From the NCBI GenBank assembly GCA_016184105.1, contig JACPDI010000017.1, forward strand, positions 31,187 to 82,865: 51,679 nt of DNA, in the 5' to 3' direction. The stretch is from Acidobacteriota bacterium (GTDB lineage Bacteria; Acidobacteriota; Vicinamibacteria; Vicinamibacterales; 2-12-FULL-66-21). The notes under the pieces are model-generated. The model was not told the origin of the DNA, did not search any database, and was given only the letters and a program-made list of their open reading frames with translations. The position numbers and the translations under genes are program-made. Shown here one piece after another: positions 33,234 to 42,913 of this stretch. Within the stretch, counting starts at the first letter, position 1; each line of letters starts with the position of its first letter.

Positions 33234-34319
33234 ATGCCACGATGCACCTTTCCTTTTCTCCTCCTTCTGCTGGGCGCTGCCGGTTGCAGCGACGCGCCGC
33301 AGGCCGGAGGTCCCGGCGCGCCCGGCGGCGGAATGCCGCCGGCCGAGGTCAAGACGATGACGCTGGCGCCCAAGCCGGTGCCGCGCGCGTCAGAGTTTGT
33401 CGCCACGATCCAGTCGCGCGCCTCCACGACCATTCAGCCGCAGGTAGAGGGGCTCGTCACCCGGATCTTCGTCAAGTCGGGCGACCGCGTGCGCGTGGGA
33501 CAGCCGCTCGTCCAGATTGATCCCGACAGGCAGCAGGCCAGCGTCGGCAGCCTCGAAGCGTCGCGCGCGGCGCGCGAGGCGGATGTCGCCTACGCGAAGC
33601 AGCAGCTCGACCGGATGCAGAAGCTGTTCGACGCCGGCGCGGTCAGCCGGCAGGAGCTCGAGCAGGCGCAGACGGCCCACCAGACCGCGCAGGCGCAGCT
33701 CAACGCCATCCGGCAGCAGATCCGGCAGGGGCGCGTGGAGCTGCAGTATTACCGCGTCACGGCCCCGGCGGCCGGCGTCGTCGGCGACATCCCGGTTCGC
33801 ACGGGGGACCGCGTCACCCCGTCGACCGAGATCACCACCATCGACCAGGCGCAGGGCCTCGAGGTGTACATCAGCGTGCCGCTCGAGCAGGCGGGCGAGT
33901 TGCGCGTCGGCCTTCCCGTCGAACTGCTCGACTCGGACGGCAAGGTTCTGTCCGCGCATTCGATCACCTTCGTCGCGCCACGCGCCGACGATGCGACGCA
34001 GTCGGTGCTCGTCAAGGCGCAGCTCCGCGAACGCCCGCAGGGGTTTCGCGTGATGCAGTACGTCCGCGCGCGGATCGTGTGGAGCAACGCGCCGCAGCTG
34101 ACCGTGCCGGTCGTGGCGGTGAACCGGATGGCGGGCCAGTACTTCGTGTTCGTCGCCGAATCGGGCCAGCAGGGCACGGTCGCCCGGCAGAAGCCGGTCA
34201 CGGTGGGCGAGATCGTCGGCGACGACTACGTCGTGCGCGGCGGGCTCAAGCCCGGCGAGCGCGTGATCGTCTCCAACCTCCAGAAGATCGGCGACGGCGC
34301 GCCGGTCAAGCCGAGCTAA
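33234..34319 (+). CDS. RND efflux periplasmic adaptor (membrane fusion protein) lipoprotein
   Basis: A 361-residue lipoprotein (signal FPFLLLLLGAAGC, lipobox Cys). The hairpin adaptor layout is clear: first barrel-sandwich half (IQPQVEGLVTRIFVKSGDRVRVGQPLVQIDPD), an alpha-hairpin of about 80 residues (AKQQLDRMQKLFDAGAVSRQELEQAQ...), second lipoyl half (YRVTAPAAGVVGDIPVRTGDRV), then beta-barrel and membrane-proximal domains ending in KPGERVIVSNLQKIGDGAPV. It couples the inner-membrane pump to the TolC-like channel. The pump gene starts 7 nt downstream after AAAGGA. Confidence 0.95.
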   Translation: MPRCTFPFLLLLLGAAGCSDAPQAGGPGAPGGGMPPAEVKTMTLAPKPVPRASEFVATIQSRASTTIQPQVEGLVTRIFVKSGDRVRVGQPLVQIDPDRQQASVGSLEASRAAREADVAYAKQQLDRMQKLFDAGAVSRQELEQAQTAHQTAQAQLNAIRQQIRQGRVELQYYRVTAPAAGVVGDIPVRTGDRVTPSTEITTIDQAQGLEVYISVPLEQAGELRVGLPVELLDSDGKVLSAHSITFVAPRADDATQSVLVKAQLRERPQGFRVMQYVRARIVWSNAPQLTVPVVAVNRMAGQYFVFVAESGQQGTVARQKPVTVGEIVGDDYVVRGGLKPGERVIVSNLQKIGDGAPVKPS

Positions 34320-34326
34320 AGGACCC

Positions 34327-37300
34327 ATGTTCGTCGACACGTTCATTCGTCGTCCGATCCTCGCGAGCGTGTGCTCGCTGGTGATCGTCATCGTGGGCGT
34401 CCTGGCGATCCCGACCATGCCGGTCGCGCAGTATCCGGACGTGGCGCCGCCGCAGGTGAGCGTCACGACCTTCTACACCGGCGCAAACGCGGAGACCGTC
34501 GAGACCGCCGTCACGACCCCGCTCGAGCAGGCGATCAACGGCGTCGAGGGCATGCTCTACATGTCCTCGTCGAGCACCAACAGCGGGTTCTCGCAGATCA
34601 GCGTCGTCTTCGACGTCACGCGCGACCCGGACATCGCCGCGGTGGACGTGCAAAACCGCGTCAACCAGGCGATGGGACGGCTGCCCGCCGAAGTGCGGCA
34701 GACCGGCGTCACCGTCCAGAAGCAGTCGATGAATTTCATCATGGGCGTGGGCGTGTTCTCCGAGCGCGCCGAGTACGACACGCTCTTCATGTCGAACTAC
34801 CTCGACGTGTACGTGCGGGACGCGCTGAAGCGCGTCCCCGGCGTGGCCGACGCGATGATCTTCGGCGAGCGCAAGTACTCCATGCGACTGTGGCTCGACC
34901 CCGTGCGCCTGGCGGCGCGCCAGATCACGGCGGGAGACGTCGTCAGCGCACTGCGCGAGCAGAACGTGCAGGTGGCGGCCGGGAGCGTCGGCGATGCGCC
35001 GGCGCGCGAGGGGCAGACCTACCAGATCTCCGTGCGCGCCGCGGGGCGGCTGACCGAGCCGCGCGAGTTCGAGAACATCATCGTGAAGTCCGGCAAGGAT
35101 GCCTCGCTGATCCGGCTGAAGGACGTCGGCACCGCCGAGCTCGGGGCGGAAACCTATTCGTCCGTGCTGCGCTTCCACGGGTTCGAGGCGGTCGGCTTCG
35201 GCGTCATGGCGCTCCCCACGGCGAACGCGCTCGACGTGGAGCGCGGCGTCATCGCCGAGCTCGAGCGGCTGAAGCACAACTTCCCGCCGGGGATGCGTTA
35301 CGCGATCGCGTTCAACACGACCGAGTCGATGCTGGAGTCGATCACGGAGGTGGTCAAGACGCTCGTCGAGGCGATCATCCTCGTCATTCTCGTGATGTTC
35401 GTCTTCCTCCAGAGCTGGCGGGCGACGCTGATCCCGACGCTCACCATCCCGGTCTCCCTGGTCGGAACCTTCGCGTTCATCAAGCTGCTGGACTTCTCGA
35501 TCAACACGCTCACGCTGTTCGCCATCGTCCTGGCCACGGGCATCGTCGTCGACGATGCGATCGTGGTCATCGAGAACATCGAGCGTCATATCCACCAGTA
35601 CAGGAAAGGCGCCGCGCACGCAGCGTCGGACGCGATGAAGGAAGTCTTCGGCGCACTGATTGCGACCGCCCTCGTGCTCATCGCGGTGTTCGTGCCGGTC
35701 GGCTTCTTCCCGGGCACGACCGGGCGGCTCTACGCGCAGTTCGCACTCACGATCGCCTTCGCGGTCGGCATCTCCGCGTTCAACGCGCTGACGCTCACGC
35801 CCGCGCTCTCCGCGCTGCTGCTGCGCGGCGGCCGCGGCGTGGACCAGGGCAAAGGGCGCGTCTTCGGGCTCTTCGAATCGATCATCACGCGGGGCACCGA
35901 CATGTATGTCGGCGTGCTCCACCGGCTGCTGCGCGTCCGCTGGGCCGTCGTGGCCGCCTTCATCGTCGGGCTCGGCCTGACGTTCATGGCCTACCGGTGG
36001 GTGCCGCAGTCCTTCGTGCCCGAGGAAGACCAGGGGTGGTTCATCACCGTCGTGCAGGCCCCCGCGGGCTCGTCGCTGGAGTACACGAGCAACGTGATGA
36101 AGGAGGTCGAGCAGCTGCTGATGAAGACGCCCGAAGTGCGGACCGTGTTCACGGTCGTGGGCTTCAGCTTCGGCGGCGCCGCGCCCAACCAGGGCATCAT
36201 GTTCGTCCCGCTGAAGCCGTTCGACGAGCGCCCGGGAGAGGAGCACCGGCTGCAGGCGGTCCTGAACCGGTTGCGCGGTCCCCTGTTCGGCGTCCAGGGG
36301 GCGCTCGTGATCCCGTTCGCGCCGCCCGCCATCGAGGGGATCAACGCGTTCGGCGGGTTCACCTTCGAAGTGCTGGACCAGAGCGGCGGCGACATCAGCC
36401 GCCTGGCGCAGGCCACCTACGGCATCATCGGCGAGTCGATGAAATCGCCGCGCGTGGCCGGCCTCTTCAGCTCGTTTACCGCGAACGATCCGCAGCTGGC
36501 CGTGGACATCGACCGCGAGCGGGCGCGCAGCCTCGGCGTGCCGATCAGCGAAATCACGAGCGCGATGCAGATCTATCTGGGGTCCGCGTACGTCAACGAC
36601 TTCGACTTCAACAACCGGGCGTACCGCGTGTACGTGCAGGCCGACAAGGCATACCGGTCGGATCCCAAGGACCTGGGCCAGTACTACGCGCGCACCAACA
36701 ACGGGCAGATGGTGCCGCTCTCCAATCTCGTCCGCGTGCGCGAAACGACGGCACCCCAGGTGATCTCGCACTACAACCTGTTCCGGTCGGCAGAAATCAA
36801 CGGCGGCGCGGCGCCGGGCTTCAGCTCCGGGCAGGCGATCGAAGAGATGGAAGCGATCGCCGCTCGCGCCCTTCCCGACGGCTTCGGCTACGCCTGGTCG
36901 GGCCTGTCGCGCGAGGAGATCCAGGCGGGGCAGCAGTCCGTGTACATCTTTCTCATTGGGCTGCTCTTCGTCTACCTGACGCTCGCCGCGCAGTACGAAT
37001 CGCTCGTGCTGCCGTTCATCGTCATGCTGAGCGTCCCGCTCGCGGTGCTCGGGGCGTTGACATTCGTCGGCGTGCGCGGCCTGCAGAACGACATCTACGT
37101 CCAGATTGGCCTGGTCATGATGATCGGGCTCGCGGCGAAGAACGGCATCCTGATCGTGGAGTTCGCCGAGCAGCTGCGCGCCCGCGGCATGTCCATCGCC
37201 GAAGCGGCGGTGGAAGCCGCGCGGATCCGGCTGCGGCCCATTCTCATGACGTCGCTGGCCCTGATTCTCGGCGTCATGCCGCTCGTCTTCGCGTCGGGCG

Positions 37301-37473
37301 CCGGACAGGAAGGACGCCACTCGGTCGGCACCACCGTGTTCGGCGGGATGGTGTTCGCCACGTTTCTGAACGTCGCCATGATTCCGATCCTCTATGTCGT
37401 GGTTCAATCAATTCGGGGTGAGACGAAACGCGCCCACGATCTCGATGAGGCCGATGGAGGCGCGCATGCGTAG
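34327..37473 (+). CDS. RND multidrug efflux transporter, HAE1 (AcrB/MexB) family
   Basis: A 1048-residue inner-membrane proton antiporter, full length. It starts with the HAE1 hallmark MFVDTFIRRPILASVCSLVIVIVG. TM4 has the paired Asp of the proton relay (GIVVDDAIVVIENIERH) and TM10 the essential Lys (GLAAKNGILIVEFAEQLRARG). PISEITSAMQIYLGSAYVNDF and the docking-domain segments match the AcrB porter fold. Twelve transmembrane helices are expected. It expels drugs, dyes or detergents; the substrate cannot be predicted. The gene overlaps the outer-membrane channel gene by eight bases. Confidence 0.97.
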   Translation: MFVDTFIRRPILASVCSLVIVIVGVLAIPTMPVAQYPDVAPPQVSVTTFYTGANAETVETAVTTPLEQAINGVEGMLYMSSSSTNSGFSQISVVFDVTRDPDIAAVDVQNRVNQAMGRLPAEVRQTGVTVQKQSMNFIMGVGVFSERAEYDTLFMSNYLDVYVRDALKRVPGVADAMIFGERKYSMRLWLDPVRLAARQITAGDVVSALREQNVQVAAGSVGDAPAREGQTYQISVRAAGRLTEPREFENIIVKSGKDASLIRLKDVGTAELGAETYSSVLRFHGFEAVGFGVMALPTANALDVERGVIAELERLKHNFPPGMRYAIAFNTTESMLESITEVVKTLVEAIILVILVMFVFLQSWRATLIPTLTIPVSLVGTFAFIKLLDFSINTLTLFAIVLATGIVVDDAIVVIENIERHIHQYRKGAAHAASDAMKEVFGALIATALVLIAVFVPVGFFPGTTGRLYAQFALTIAFAVGISAFNALTLTPALSALLLRGGRGVDQGKGRVFGLFESIITRGTDMYVGVLHRLLRVRWAVVAAFIVGLGLTFMAYRWVPQSFVPEEDQGWFITVVQAPAGSSLEYTSNVMKEVEQLLMKTPEVRTVFTVVGFSFGGAAPNQGIMFVPLKPFDERPGEEHRLQAVLNRLRGPLFGVQGALVIPFAPPAIEGINAFGGFTFEVLDQSGGDISRLAQATYGIIGESMKSPRVAGLFSSFTANDPQLAVDIDRERARSLGVPISEITSAMQIYLGSAYVNDFDFNNRAYRVYVQADKAYRSDPKDLGQYYARTNNGQMVPLSNLVRVRETTAPQVISHYNLFRSAEINGGAAPGFSSGQAIEEMEAIAARALPDGFGYAWSGLSREEIQAGQQSVYIFLIGLLFVYLTLAAQYESLVLPFIVMLSVPLAVLGALTFVGVRGLQNDIYVQIGLVMMIGLAAKNGILIVEFAEQLRARGMSIAEAAVEAARIRLRPILMTSLALILGVMPLVFASGAGQEGRHSVGTTVFGGMVFATFLNVAMIPILYVVVQSIRGETKRAHDLDEADGGAHA

Positions 37474-38761
37474 GGCACCGGCGATCTCCGGCCTGGCATG
37501 GCTGATCGTGGCCGCGACGGCGCCGCCGGCCGCGGCGCAGCAGGCAGCGATGGATCGACTCACCTTCGACGAGGCGATCGAACGCGCCGTCACGCGCAAC
37601 CCGACCATCGAGCAGGCGGCGGCGGGCATCCTGCGCGCAGAGGCGCTCCTGCAGCAGGTGCGGTCGCTGTCCCTGCCCACCCTCGACGCGACGCTGACGA
37701 CGCGCACGATCGGTCCCGTGCAGAAGTTCGCGGGCGAATCCATCAATCCCCGGACACAGTTGACGACGTCCGCCGTCCTCGGTGTCCCCCTGCTGAGGCC
37801 GGCGCGGTGGGCGCTCCGCGCGCAGGCGCGGGACCAGGTGCTCGTCGCGCAACGAAGCGCGGCCGATGCGCGCCGCGAGATCGCGGTCGCCGCGGCACAG
37901 GCCTATCTCGCCATCATCACCCAGCGGCGCGTCGCCGAGTTGAACGAGCGCGCGCGCGACAACGCCCGCGCGCACTTCGATGACGCACACCAGCGGTACG
38001 AAGGGGGTCTGGGCAGCCGCCTGAACGCGCTGCGGGCGCAGCAGGAATTGTCTGCCGACGAAGCGCGCGTCGAAGATGCGCGCCTGGCGGTCCGGCGCGC
38101 GCAGGAGGCGCTGGGCGTGCTGGTGGCCGGGGATGGCCCTGTCGATGCAGCCGCCGAACCGGCGTTCGACATTCCGGCTGATGTCATCGCTCCGGCCGGG
38201 GCTCCGGCACCGCCGGCCATCGGCTCGCGGCCGGACGTTCGGCTCGCCGAGGCCCGCATTGCCGCAGCCGAGCGGGTCGTCGCCGATTCGTGGAAGGACT
38301 ATCTCCCGGAGCTCACCGGCGTCGTCAGCCCGCAGCTGCTGACGCCGTCCGGGCTGTTCTTCCCGACGCGAAGCTGGAGCGCCGCGCTGATCTTCTCGGC
38401 GCCGGTGCTCGAATTCGGCGAGCGCCGCGGGCTGAAGCGCGAGCGCCAGGCGCGGCTCGACATCGCGCGCGCCGACCGCACCGGAGTGGAGCGACAGGCG
38501 CGCGCGGAACTGCGCGCCGCGATCGAAGCCGTGCGCAGCACGGAGCGCGCCCTCGAGCGCACGCGCGCCGCGGCCGAACAGGCGAACGAGGTGGTGCGCA
38601 TCACCGTCATCGCCTTCCGGGCAGGCGCGACGACGAATATCGAGGTGATCGACGCCCAGCGAGGCGCGCGCGACGCCGAGACGGCCGCCGCAATCGCTGA
38701 AGACGCGCTGCGCCGCGCCAGGCTCGAGCTGCTCGTCGCGCTCGGGCGGTTTCCGCGGTGA
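37466..38761 (+). CDS. TolC-family outer-membrane efflux channel
   Basis: A 431-residue exported protein (signal ISGLAWLIVAATAPPAAAQ). It shows the twofold TolC repeat of long coiled helices (LTFDEAIERAVTRNPTIEQAAAGILRAEALLQQ; RPDVRLAEARIAAAERVVADSWKDYLPEL) and beta segments (FFPTRSWSAALIFSAPVLEFGERR). The C-terminal helix ends RLELLVALGRFPR. ATG 37466 follows GGAGG and overlaps the pump gene, so adaptor, pump and channel form a complete tripartite system from one operon. Confidence 0.93.
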   Translation: MRRAPAISGLAWLIVAATAPPAAAQQAAMDRLTFDEAIERAVTRNPTIEQAAAGILRAEALLQQVRSLSLPTLDATLTTRTIGPVQKFAGESINPRTQLTTSAVLGVPLLRPARWALRAQARDQVLVAQRSAADARREIAVAAAQAYLAIITQRRVAELNERARDNARAHFDDAHQRYEGGLGSRLNALRAQQELSADEARVEDARLAVRRAQEALGVLVAGDGPVDAAAEPAFDIPADVIAPAGAPAPPAIGSRPDVRLAEARIAAAERVVADSWKDYLPELTGVVSPQLLTPSGLFFPTRSWSAALIFSAPVLEFGERRGLKRERQARLDIARADRTGVERQARAELRAAIEAVRSTERALERTRAAAEQANEVVRITVIAFRAGATTNIEVIDAQRGARDAETAAAIAEDALRRARLELLVALGRFPR

Positions 38762-38860: not shown

Positions 38861-40762
38861 ATGCCCCTCGTCACCCTCGACCGCGTCTCGATTGCCTACG
38901 GTCACCTCCCCCTGCTCGACGCTGTGGCCCTGCAGATCGAACCTGGTGAGCGTGTCTGCCTCGTCGGGCGGAACGGCACGGGCAAGTCCACGCTGCTGCA
39001 GATCGTCAGCGGCGAACTGCCGCCCGACGCCGGAACGGTCTGGCGGCAGCCGGGCGTGCGCATCGCCCGCCTGGTCCAGGATGTGCCGCTGTCCGACGAT
39101 CGTCCCGTGTTCGACGTCGTGTCCGACGGGCTCGGCGAGCCGGCGGATCTCGTCAAGGCCTACCACCATGCGGCGATCGACGTCGCGGAGGGCGGCAACG
39201 CCGCCGCCCTCGAGCGCCTGGGACGGCTGCAGCACGAACTGGAAGAGCGAGGGGGCTGGACGATCGAGCAGCGCGTGGAGATGGTGCTGGCGCGGCTCGA
39301 CCTTCCCCCCGACGCCGTCGTGGACACGCTTTCCGGGGGATGGCGCAGGCGCGTGCTCCTCGCGCGCGCGCTCGTCTCCTCGCCGGACCTGCTCCTGCTC
39401 GACGAGCCCACGAACCATCTCGACATCGAGGCCATCACGTGGCTCGAAACGTTTCTGGCCGACTTCTCGGGGGCGGTGCTGTTTGTCACGCACGATCGCG
39501 CATTCCTCCAGCGCCTGGCGACGCGGATCGTCGAGCTCGATCGGGGCGCGCTGACGTCGTGGCCCGGTGACTACGAGGCGTTTCTGCGGGGAAAAGCGGA
39601 GCTGGCGGCCGCCGAAGCCTCGCAGCAGGTGAAATTCGACAAGCGGCTCGCGGGCGAGGAGGCCTGGCTGCGCCAGGGGATCAAAGCGCGGCGAACGCGA
39701 GACGAGGGGCGCGTCCGGGCCCTGCTCGCCATGCGCGAGGAGCGTGCGGCGCGGCGGTCGCAGCCGGGTACTGCGAGGATCGGGATCGAGCTCGCGGACC
39801 CGTCCGGGCAGATGGTCTTCGAGGTGCGGGGCGTCTCCAAGGCCTTCGGCGACACCGTCGTCGTACGGGATTTCTCGACACGGATCATGCGGGGCGATCG
39901 CATCGGCCTCATCGGGCCGAATGGCGCCGGCAAGACGACGCTGCTGCGGATCCTGCTCGGCGAGATCGAGCCTGACGCCGGGGAGGTGCGGCACGGCGCA
40001 GGCGTGCAGGTCGCCTATTACGACCAGCAGCGGGAGCAGCTCGACCCCGAGCGCGCGGTGTTTGATGTCATCGGCGAAGGCAGCGACACGGTGACGGTGA
40101 ACGGCCGGTCGCGTCACGTGAACGGATATCTTCGCGACTTCCTGTTTCCGCCCGAGTGCGCCCGCTCGCCTGTGAAGGCCCTGTCGGGCGGCGAGCGGAA
40201 CCGGCTGCTCCTGGCGCGGTTGTTCACACGCCCCGCCAATGTGCTCGTGATGGACGAGCCCACCAACGATCTCGACCTCGAAACCCTCGAGCTGCTGGAG
40301 TCGCAGCTCGCGGAGTTCCCGGGAACGGTGCTGCTGGTCGGCCACGATCGCGTGTTTCTGGACAGCGTGGTGACCGGCACGCTCGCCTTTGAGGGCAACG
40401 GCCGCGTCGCGGAATACGTCGGCGGCTACCAGGACTGGCTCCGCCAGCGGCCCACCACGCCAGAACCGTCCGCGCTGCCCGCGCGCCTCCCGTCAATCGC
40501 GCAGCCGGCGGCCAAACCGGCGCCAGGGGCCCGCCGAAAGCTCTCCTACAAGGAGGCGCGGGAACTGGCGGACCTGCCGGCACGCATCGGCGTGCTGGAG
40601 GCCGAACAGCGTCGGCTCAACGAATTGGTGTCGTCGCCGGGGTTTTACAAGGAGAGCGCGGCGAGGATCAGGGAAATCCTGGCGCGACTTGAACAGCTCG
40701 AGGTGGAGATACGCGACGCGTACGACCGCTGGGAGCAACTGGATTCCAGGGGCGCAGGCTAG
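38861..40762 (+). CDS. ABC-F family ATPase, Uup type
   Basis: A 633-residue soluble protein with two ATPase domains and no membrane part. Domain 1: Walker A GRNGTGKST, signature LSGGWRRR, Walker B LLLLDEPTNHLDIEA. Domain 2: Walker A GPNGAGKTT, signature LSGGERNR, Walker B VLVMDEPTNDLDLET. The inter-domain linker is charged (EEAWLRQGIKARRTRDEGRVRALLAMREERAARR). The C-terminal 75 residues (ARRKLSYKEARELADLPARIGVLEAEQRRLNELV) are the Uup coiled-coil DNA-binding tail. Uup acts on branched DNA and the ribosome. It is placed alone between the efflux operon and a convergent gene that it overlaps by four bases. Confidence 0.95.
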   Translation: MPLVTLDRVSIAYGHLPLLDAVALQIEPGERVCLVGRNGTGKSTLLQIVSGELPPDAGTVWRQPGVRIARLVQDVPLSDDRPVFDVVSDGLGEPADLVKAYHHAAIDVAEGGNAAALERLGRLQHELEERGGWTIEQRVEMVLARLDLPPDAVVDTLSGGWRRRVLLARALVSSPDLLLLDEPTNHLDIEAITWLETFLADFSGAVLFVTHDRAFLQRLATRIVELDRGALTSWPGDYEAFLRGKAELAAAEASQQVKFDKRLAGEEAWLRQGIKARRTRDEGRVRALLAMREERAARRSQPGTARIGIELADPSGQMVFEVRGVSKAFGDTVVVRDFSTRIMRGDRIGLIGPNGAGKTTLLRILLGEIEPDAGEVRHGAGVQVAYYDQQREQLDPERAVFDVIGEGSDTVTVNGRSRHVNGYLRDFLFPPECARSPVKALSGGERNRLLLARLFTRPANVLVMDEPTNDLDLETLELLESQLAEFPGTVLLVGHDRVFLDSVVTGTLAFEGNGRVAEYVGGYQDWLRQRPTTPEPSALPARLPSIAQPAAKPAPGARRKLSYKEARELADLPARIGVLEAEQRRLNELVSSPGFYKESAARIREILARLEQLEVEIRDAYDRWEQLDSRGAG

Positions 40763-41304
40763 CGCAGGAAGGTGAACTTCGCGTGCGCTGACGCCGCGCT
40801 CACCCAGCCGAAGACCGACCCGCCGTGGGGCCGCGCCTTGACCCGAACCTCCACGTAATACTCGCGATTCGGTTCGAGCCTGGACGTGCGAAACAGCGGC
40901 AGGCGGTCGAGCGTGGTCATGAAGCGCGGCACGAGCGAGGCGTCTTCGGTCACGAGCGCCTCCTCCACGCGCCCGTCGATCGTGCGCAACAGGCTGTGGC
41001 GGCGCGTGAGGTTGTCGTACTGGTCGCTGTTGCTGACCACGGCCGTGTCGATCGTGCGATCGACCCACGCGGGCACTTCCATCCGGAGGTCGACCGTGTA
41101 GGTGAAGGTCGTCCGCAGGCCGCTCGCGATCGCCGCGCGGACCTCATCGTTGAATGCGTTCGGCAGGTCGCACGAAATGAGGACGCGGTCGTCCCGCACG
41201 AGCGGCGTGATCCTGATCGTGTCGGCCGCGTAGAGCGCGACCGATGCGGCCACAACCGCGACGAGGCTCCACGCGCGCCGTGCGTCCTCCGGACGTCGTC
41301 TCAT
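40759..41304 (-). CDS. DUF4390 family exported protein
   Basis: A 181-residue protein with an N-terminal signal or anchor (AWSLVAVVAASVALYAAD). The remainder shows the DUF4390 pattern: IRITPLVRDDRVLISCDLPNAFNDEVRAAIASGLRTTFTYTVDL, a TIDTAVVSNSDQYDNLTRRH core and a terminal NREYYVEVRVKARPHGG. DUF4390 proteins are periplasmic, of unknown function, and in Proteobacteria often sit with the NtrY/NtrX two-component system. The 3' end overlaps the Uup gene by 4 bp. It lies upstream of the Uup terminus and downstream of the pseudo-beta-lactamase gene with 28 bp between. Confidence 0.82.
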   Translation of the reverse strand: MRRRPEDARRAWSLVAVVAASVALYAADTIRITPLVRDDRVLISCDLPNAFNDEVRAAIASGLRTTFTYTVDLRMEVPAWVDRTIDTAVVSNSDQYDNLTRRHSLLRTIDGRVEEALVTEDASLVPRFMTTLDRLPLFRTSRLEPNREYYVEVRVKARPHGGSVFGWVSAASAHAKFTFLR

Positions 41305-41332: not shown

Positions 41333-42913
41333 TCAGTACCGCAGCGTGAGCGCCATGTTCGCCCGCCAGAACGACAGCTGCGGCCTGCCGATGCTCGTGC
41401 CCGTCGGGGTGTCTGGCCCGCCGATGCTGCGGAAGTACCGCACGTCCCAGCTCACGCCGAACGTTTCGGTCAGGAAGCCGGTCACGCCGCCGCCCACGTC
41501 AAATGCCGGCATCGTCTCGGTGAGCGGCAGCGCGCCGAGCACATCCTTCGTGCGCGCGCGCATCAGCCCGAAGCCGCCGACGAAGTACGGGCGCAGCGTG
41601 TATTCCGTCACCCGCTGCGGCGCCGCCACGACCACGTTGCCGGTGAGCGTGATGACACTGCTGCGAACGACCAGCGACGTGCCGCCCTCGAAAAACCCGG
41701 GCATGTAGGCGAAATCGGCCTCGACGCCGAGCATCTCACCGAGGACGACCGTGCCTACGCCAAGCGTGAGATGCCTGTTGTCCCGCGCCTCTCCGACGTC
41801 GACCAGCGTGGTGTCGCCGCCGAATGTCAGCCCCGCGAACGGCTTCAACTGGCGCTCGGCCGAAAGCTGAGCCGTGGTCGCCGTCAGCAGCGCCGTGACG
41901 AGCACATCGCCCGCCTCGAGCGGAAACGACCTCACCAGCCCGTCGCTGTTCGCCAGCGCAATGAACGTGAGCCCGCGCCCCGGCACGCTGATGATGAGCG
42001 AAGACGAGGCGTTCTCCCCCACCCCGAATTGCCAGACGATCAGCTCGCCGTTGTAAATCTGTGAGAACCAGCCGAGACCGTGCGGCAGCGGCTGACCGTT
42101 GAAGCCCAGCGGGGCCCGCCACGCCCCCTCCAACGTGTCAGGCCGCACGAGTATTCCGCGGCGGAGCGCGACGTCGAACTGCGCGAGATCGCGCGCGCTG
42201 GCAATCAGCCCCGCAGAGGGTGACAGCCCGGCCGCGACGTAGTTCGATCGCGTCGCGCGGCCGCGCTTGTCCACCGCATAGGGGACAGCCACGCGCTCCA
42301 GAACGCTGCGGTAATGCTCGATCTCTGCCGGCTCGAAGGTCCCTTCGGATCCAGGCGCGAGGCTGATCGCATCCGGTCCGGGCACCGAGTCGAGCATGGA
42401 GAGCCGGTTGAGGAGGTTCGCCAGGGTCTCACGATAGGAATCACCCGTGCACATCCGCATGCCCCGCCAGAGCGGCGCGAGCCGTTCCGGACGATAGGCG
42501 AACACCAGAAACTCCGGCGCGCCGGACGTGTGGGACAGGAGCTGGCGAACAGTCGCATCCGGCTCCGGGCTGGCGCTGTCGAACCGCGCCACGCGGTCGT
42601 CGAGCGACAGGCGTCCTTCCTCGGCGCAGCGCAGCGACATCGCGGCGGTGAATGTCTGAGTGAGGCCGTCGACGTGAAAAGGCGTATCGGGGCGGACGGC
42701 GATCGATCGGTCGACATCCTGCAGGCCGAAGCCGCGCTCCCAGGCGATGCCGCCATCGCCGACCACCGCGGCTGCGAGACCAGGAATGCCCGCCTGCCGG
42801 GCCAGCGCCTGGAGGTACCGGCCGAACAACTCGAGCGCGAGCTCGTCGGCGCCCGCGGGCACCCGGACTAACAGCAGAGCTGCAACGAGCAGGCCGAAGA
42901 CGCCTCGGCGCAT
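41333..42913 (-). CDS. Serine beta-lactamase-like pseudoenzyme fused to an outer-membrane barrel
   Basis: A 526-residue exported protein (signal GVFGLLVAALLLVRVPAGA). Residues about 25-360 follow the class C beta-lactamase/PBP4-like fold (IPGLAAAVVGDGGIAWERGFGLQDVD; EEGRLSLDDRVARF; TVRQLLSHTSG). The active site is lost: where homologues have a Ser-x-x-Lys, this protein reads VDGLTQTFTA, so Ser is Gly83 and Lys is Gln86. The Tyr-x-Asn motif is also not intact. The last 150 residues look like an OmpA/porin-type barrel (FAGLTFGGDTTLV; TLRPYFVGGFGLMR; FGVSWDVRYFRS) ending in LTLRY. A binding or anchoring role is more likely than hydrolysis. Confidence 0.85.
   Translation of the reverse strand: MRRGVFGLLVAALLLVRVPAGADELALELFGRYLQALARQAGIPGLAAAVVGDGGIAWERGFGLQDVDRSIAVRPDTPFHVDGLTQTFTAAMSLRCAEEGRLSLDDRVARFDSASPEPDATVRQLLSHTSGAPEFLVFAYRPERLAPLWRGMRMCTGDSYRETLANLLNRLSMLDSVPGPDAISLAPGSEGTFEPAEIEHYRSVLERVAVPYAVDKRGRATRSNYVAAGLSPSAGLIASARDLAQFDVALRRGILVRPDTLEGAWRAPLGFNGQPLPHGLGWFSQIYNGELIVWQFGVGENASSSLIISVPGRGLTFIALANSDGLVRSFPLEAGDVLVTALLTATTAQLSAERQLKPFAGLTFGGDTTLVDVGEARDNRHLTLGVGTVVLGEMLGVEADFAYMPGFFEGGTSLVVRSSVITLTGNVVVAAPQRVTEYTLRPYFVGGFGLMRARTKDVLGALPLTETMPAFDVGGGVTGFLTETFGVSWDVRYFRSIGGPDTPTGTSIGRPQLSFWRANMALTLRY

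Follow-up and report, generated by a model that had tools for sequence, protein, structure and literature searches.

A catalytically dead beta-lactamase-fold hydrolase, its outer-membrane barrel and a relocated DUF4390 protein as a possible sensory front end of NtrYX in Vicinamibacterales

Inside the beta-lactamase fold, bacteria of the order Vicinamibacterales carry a clear and old clade of pseudoenzymes, for which a signalling role is plausible. These proteins, which we call PSH (the name used here for the dead S12/class-C-fold hydrolase), are encoded beside an outer-membrane barrel and, in most loci, beside a DUF4390 protein of the type that elsewhere neighbours the NtrY kinase. PSH, barrel and DUF4390 could form one exported module acting in the NtrYX two-component pathway, a proposal to which we would give slightly under an even chance. 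The locus described here lies in the window, that is, the whole stretch of 51,679 nucleotides that was analysed, from contig JACPDI010000017.1 of an Acidobacteriota genome (assembly GCA_016184105.1).

The reading frame at 41333..42913 of the minus strand is open over its full length and encodes 526 amino acids, a single fused gene that starts with a signal peptide, continues with a dead hydrolase domain of S12 (class-C beta-lactamase-like) type and ends in an outer-membrane barrel. The N-terminal leader is hydrophobic, and the hydrolase domain, at residues ~23-336 (41906..42847, minus strand), matches the Pfam family PF00144 (Beta-lactamase) with an E-value of 4.1e-35. Most of this domain is predicted at a pLDDT above 90 (residues ~30-330 of the AlphaFold2 model), and VIA-align superposes it over ~300 residues on the S12 hydrolases 6ksu (Z 30.8), 2qmi (Z 30.6) and 7spn (Z 29.6), which bears out the intact fold that an initial annotation had read from the sequence. 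The same annotation had noticed Gly83-x-x-Gln86 in place of the catalytic Ser-x-x-Lys in a full-length frame, and this reading was confirmed: the former active site (42656..42667, minus strand) is now Gly83-Leu-Thr-Gln86. Elsewhere in the window, HlyD-type, AcrB-type and OEP genes follow each other in a row at 33234-38761 as an RND efflux pump operon, beyond which an ABC-F-like gene lies at 38861-40762.

A scan of genome contigs with the single window sequence found no relatives. When 162 genomes of the order were searched with a profile of the family, 71 gave a match; one of them (G013), a single fragment with an E-value of 3.4e-31, was taken as an ordinary S12 enzyme and set aside, leaving 70 PSH genomes, 68 of which are represented in the alignment; the other two, G112 and G113, have only fragments at contig ends. 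As an outgroup, 13 proteins were used, corresponding to the matches outside the order at an E-value of 1e-30 when 396 genomes across the phylum were surveyed; a protein from G185, located on a stretch outside those retrieved, is not among them.

Ser-x-x-Lys occurs in none of the 68 aligned orthologues of the order, where the Lys is missing in all 68 and the Ser in 66, and both residues are present in all 13 of the nearest outgroup proteins, aligned with Gly83 and Gln86. The initial annotation had considered that orthologues with a normal motif would reduce the window copy to a recent mutant, and no such orthologue was found among the 68. The Gly and the Gln are themselves not fixed, a point that had been left to the orthologues: position 83 is Gly in 39 of the 68, followed by Asp (22), Asn (3), Ser (2), Glu (1) and Ala (1), and position 86 is Gln in 53, Glu in 11, Gly in 3 and Ser in 1, a variation that rules out Gly/Gln as a fixed new motif. 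The Ser is retained only in two loci (L135 and L138, of genomes G127 and G128, which share a genus code), in the form Ser-x-x-Gln. The Tyr of the second motif, Tyr140 (42494..42496, minus strand), is largely kept, as Tyr in 61 and Phe in 7 of the 68 proteins; the Asn of Tyr-x-Asn is gone, position 142 being mostly Pro, as in the window, and Asn in none of the 68. At the site of the third motif the window has W294-Q-F-G297 (42023..42034, minus strand), which does not fit Lys/His-x-Gly, and position 295, a His in 12 of the 13 outgroup proteins, is Gln in 36, His in 22, Thr in 8 and Ser in 2 of the dead ones. Two cysteines, Cys96 (42626..42628, minus strand) and Cys155 (42449..42451, minus strand), are each present in 68 of 68 proteins of the dead clade and in none of the 13 outgroup proteins, and a disulfide between them is possible.

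The tree places the dead proteins in a single clade set among proteins that have Ser-x-x-Lys, with a support of 100/99; like all our PSH trees it was thinned, and two paralogues and two outgroup rows were omitted from it. The hydrolase is under purifying selection, with dN/dS values of 0.06-0.25 in ten out of ten close pairs. On this phylogenetic evidence, the catalytic loss is judged to be old and fixed in the clade, and the dead clade to have a single origin. The preservation of a beta-lactamase fold without catalysis, as originally suggested, is thus upheld by the loss in every orthologue and by the selection on the gene, which together rule out a recent mutant or a pseudogene. A search-level look at the literature on dead serine hydrolases found nothing fitting the PSH family.

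Some further relatives deserve mention. Two S12 proteins from records titled Candidatus Hydrogenedentota (L290 and L291) show T-x-x-Q at the Ser-x-x-Lys site and WQFG as third motif; they are without Cys96, and profiles detect neither a barrel nor a DUF4390 neighbour. The tree does not place them firmly; they perhaps lost catalysis independently, and across the wider family the catalytic pair may have disappeared on several occasions. By its grouping the window genome belongs to family f1, but its PSH and DUF4390 cluster with the copies of family f6, so that a horizontal transfer of the module is possible. One contig with the acidobacterial module (L242) is titled Bifidobacterium breve, probably a mislabelled metagenome bin.

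The outer-membrane barrel takes up residues ~353-526 of the window protein (41336..41857, minus strand). The family PF13505 (OMP_b-brl) matches residues 338-497 with 27.6 bits, just under its cut-off of 28.7, and among five separate barrels of relatives scanned against it, two are over the cut-off, two under it and one gives no match; the assignment as a barrel draws on Pfam, on the protein's own sequence and on its relatives, the model having a pLDDT below 50 from residue 345, in a region covered by one sequence. Of the 67 other loci, 65 encode the barrel separately, in a frame of its own directly downstream of PSH, and the remaining two are cut by a contig end after the hydrolase. The fusion first reported for this gene is therefore real in the window frame but not general, being found in the window genome only among the 68 loci, and in one assembly; as the usual state it is ruled out by the two separate genes in 65 of 65 other loci that show both. 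By comparison with the two-gene relatives, the joint, at residues 337-352 (41858..41905, minus strand), is an apparent remnant of the signal peptide of the barrel gene. The same comparison suggests that a deletion took out the C-terminal residues and stop codon of the hydrolase together with the beginning of the barrel gene, and that the tail of the barrel's signal peptide stayed behind as a linker. As the fusion shows at the level of sequence, PSH and barrel are able to function within a single polypeptide. In OmpX-type barrels of eight strands both ends are periplasmic, and a domain N-terminal to such a barrel is expected in the periplasm.

A gene for a PlrP-type periplasmic protein of the DUF4390 family lies 28 bases downstream of the fused gene (40759..41304, minus strand; PF14334, 50.8 bits with a cut-off of 27). 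DUF4390 adjoins PSH in 62 of the 68 loci, in three different layouts: divergent from PSH (37 loci), after the barrel (19, including the window) and before the hydrolase (6). Three of the six other loci are cut by a contig end (G048, G104 and G126), and the remaining three (G005, G017 and G030) lack DUF4390 next to PSH and barrel and keep it at ntrY, an arrangement that appears to predate the move of DUF4390 discussed below. A fold search with DUF4390 gave weak matches only, many of them immunoglobulin- or fibronectin-like and none at an E-value of 0.001 or better. PlrP of Bordetella, likewise a DUF4390 protein, is described as the third, periplasmic member of PlrSR, a system of the NtrYX family, and is proposed, from genetic evidence, to hold back phosphatase activity in PlrS by way of the periplasmic domain of this kinase (PMC13001219). 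Papers found to mention DUF4390 propose an NtrY-type kinase as its partner.

The ordinary locus in the order has the genes for LPG synthase, nrdR, DUF4390, ntrY and ntrX, and one is also found in the window genome, whose contig C52 encodes an NtrY kinase and an NtrX regulator (NtrY_N, HisKA and Sigma54 domains). The second DUF4390 of this genome sits at ntrY and is 42% identical to the window copy over the aligned positions, and the two copies may divide the work between them. Both kinds of DUF4390, PSH-linked and ntrY-linked, occur in four genomes (G000, G065, G076 and G048), the last one being counted only if its contig C311 carries the rest of its PSH locus. An NtrY match is present in 66 of the 70 PSH genomes. 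Among the 123 genomes with NtrY, a DUF4390 at 1.5 kb or less from ntrY is found in 7 of the 66 with PSH versus 45 of the 57 without it (Fisher p 4e-15, with genomes treated as independent of shared descent); the 12 others without PSH have no NtrY-linked DUF4390, in some cases perhaps through contig breaks. Genome G098 has neither PSH nor any DUF4390 match. When 19 ntrY loci from genomes that carry PSH were searched by tblastn, no DUF4390 was found in them; these loci keep the order nrdR, ntrY, ntrX (one is cut upstream and another has ntrX cut), and a control with 12 ntrY loci picked for having a DUF4390 recovered it in all 12, which speaks to detectability only. As judged from gene order, the adjacency of PSH and DUF4390 is not required, given that seven genomes keep DUF4390 at ntrY.

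The history of these copies was followed with a phylogeny of 88 DUF4390 proteins, in which 24 or 25 of the 52 copies linked to NtrY are represented; its careful run leaves out G074 (a 31%-filled row) and G032 (a long row), and repeats of the same copies were excluded from both runs. The PSH-linked copies, labelled as such from gene order ahead of any tree, fall into two clades, one of 55 rows (100/99) and another of 6 rows (100/98). The small clade, which has its own layout with DUF4390 before the hydrolase, joins, with a support of 100/100, copies from three other genomes of its GTDB family, two of them NtrY-linked and the third on a contig that has no ntrY match. A tree that unites all PSH-linked copies in one clade is modestly disfavoured (AU p 0.0245). 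DUF4390 usually seems, then, to have moved from the ntrY operon to the PSH locus, in two separate events. At the 39 positions conserved in NtrY-linked DUF4390, the same majority residue is found at 35 in the large clade and at 37 in the small one, as would be expected if DUF4390 still meets the same partner.

Since DUF4390, elsewhere a neighbour of the kinase, was placed beside the PSH-barrel pair at least twice, PSH and barrel would act in the same pathway. A pathway shared with NtrYX is in this sense well supported by the company of the genes; physical contact, the direction of signalling and a ligand within the module are what we infer. The barrel would tether PSH to the outer membrane on its periplasmic side, and PSH, unable to cut, could shift its state or its partners as the condition of the envelope changes. 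The PSH-barrel unit would then bind or release DUF4390, which may set the balance between the kinase and phosphatase activities of NtrY, by analogy with what is proposed for PlrP in Bordetella. That NtrYX has its sensory front end in the PSH-barrel pair, in a chain that spans the envelope from barrel to dead hydrolase, PlrP, NtrY and NtrX, and to which DUF4390 moved at least two times, seems to us a tentative proposal, somewhat further below an even chance than the module itself. As part of the module proposal, PSH could possibly bind some other ligand or protein partners, and a ligand in the former active site is conceivable. In Rhodobacter, NtrYX is reported to control genes of peptidoglycan and other envelope functions (PMC7240162).

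Other readings of the same loci have to be weighed. PSH could serve the barrel, without any catalysis, as an escort, plug or lid, with a role in its assembly, stability or gating, in which case DUF4390 would have joined them for envelope coexpression and NtrYX would have no direct part. The pairing of PSH and barrel in 65 of the 67 other loci, even where DUF4390 is missing, agrees well with such a role, as does their fusion in the window, and mere coexpression of envelope genes could account for the relocation of DUF4390. However, it leaves unexplained why it was an NtrY-linked DUF4390 that moved in, on two occasions, and why its usual position was vacated, and we consider this explanation unlikely, if worth keeping in mind. 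A weaker candidate is that PSH and barrel are targets of the NtrYX regulon or feedback parts, whose amount or state DUF4390 reports back, PSH sensing nothing itself. The gene company would be the same and the control of envelope genes by NtrX in Rhodobacter (PMC7240162) fits in, but DUF4390 is mostly divergent from or after the PSH-barrel genes, an arrangement uninformative on direction.

Binding of beta-lactams or peptidoglycan peptides (muropeptides) on the surface of the cell, which the initial annotation had offered as an example of a binding function, finds no support in these data and appears improbable: the overall fold is intact and Tyr140 mostly kept, but the pocket positions 83, 86, 142 and 295 drift, the N-terminal side of the barrel is expected in the periplasm from the topology given above, and the neighbouring genes point to NtrYX. 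It is very improbable that PSH remains an enzyme that uses other residues, despite the purifying selection and the two orthologues with Ser-x-x-Gln, when the Lys is gone in all 68 proteins, no replacement Ser-Lys pair is seen in any of them, and their alignment shows no apparent alternative nucleophile among the invariant residues. Hardly any weight is left for a recent decay, a pseudogene or an assembly artefact, for which the fusion in one assembly could be invoked, against a loss common to 68 of 68 orthologues, the low dN/dS values, and a fused frame that is open and has kept its barrel.

The participation of PSH and barrel in the NtrYX pathway would bear on the wider question of which signal NtrYX-type kinases sense. 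A conserved operon that joins DUF4390, a dead peptidoglycan-enzyme fold and a barrel names candidate partners, and makes this question of NtrYX sensing testable.

Compared with the S12/class-C beta-lactamase-fold serine hydrolases (PF00144), such as SurE (6ksu), the Pyrococcus homologue (2qmi) and the esterase IS11 (7spn), PSH has in common the fold over ~300 residues, the export, the layout of the motifs and the second-motif Tyr, and differs in the absence of Ser-x-x-Lys from all 68 proteins, the missing Asn of Tyr-x-Asn, the altered third motif, the clade-specific pair of cysteines and the fixed barrel neighbour. The DUF4390 of the window belongs to the same Pfam family as PlrP of Bordetella, and the ordinary copies of the order likewise stand directly before ntrY; unlike these, the window copy has a dead hydrolase and a barrel as neighbours instead of ntrY. 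The PSH-linked barrel resembles the small OmpX/OmpA-like barrels (PF13505) in size and, with Pfam scores on both sides of the cut-off, in domain match, but is always paired with PSH where the locus is visible, and is fused to it in the window. The beta-lactam sensors BlaR1 and MecR1 use a penicillin-binding fold for sensing, in which the serine is kept, and RcsF is a barrel-associated, periplasmic sensor of outer-membrane stress that reports to an inner-membrane kinase through an intermediate. Both are analogies only for the PSH module, with which RcsF shares no protein family.
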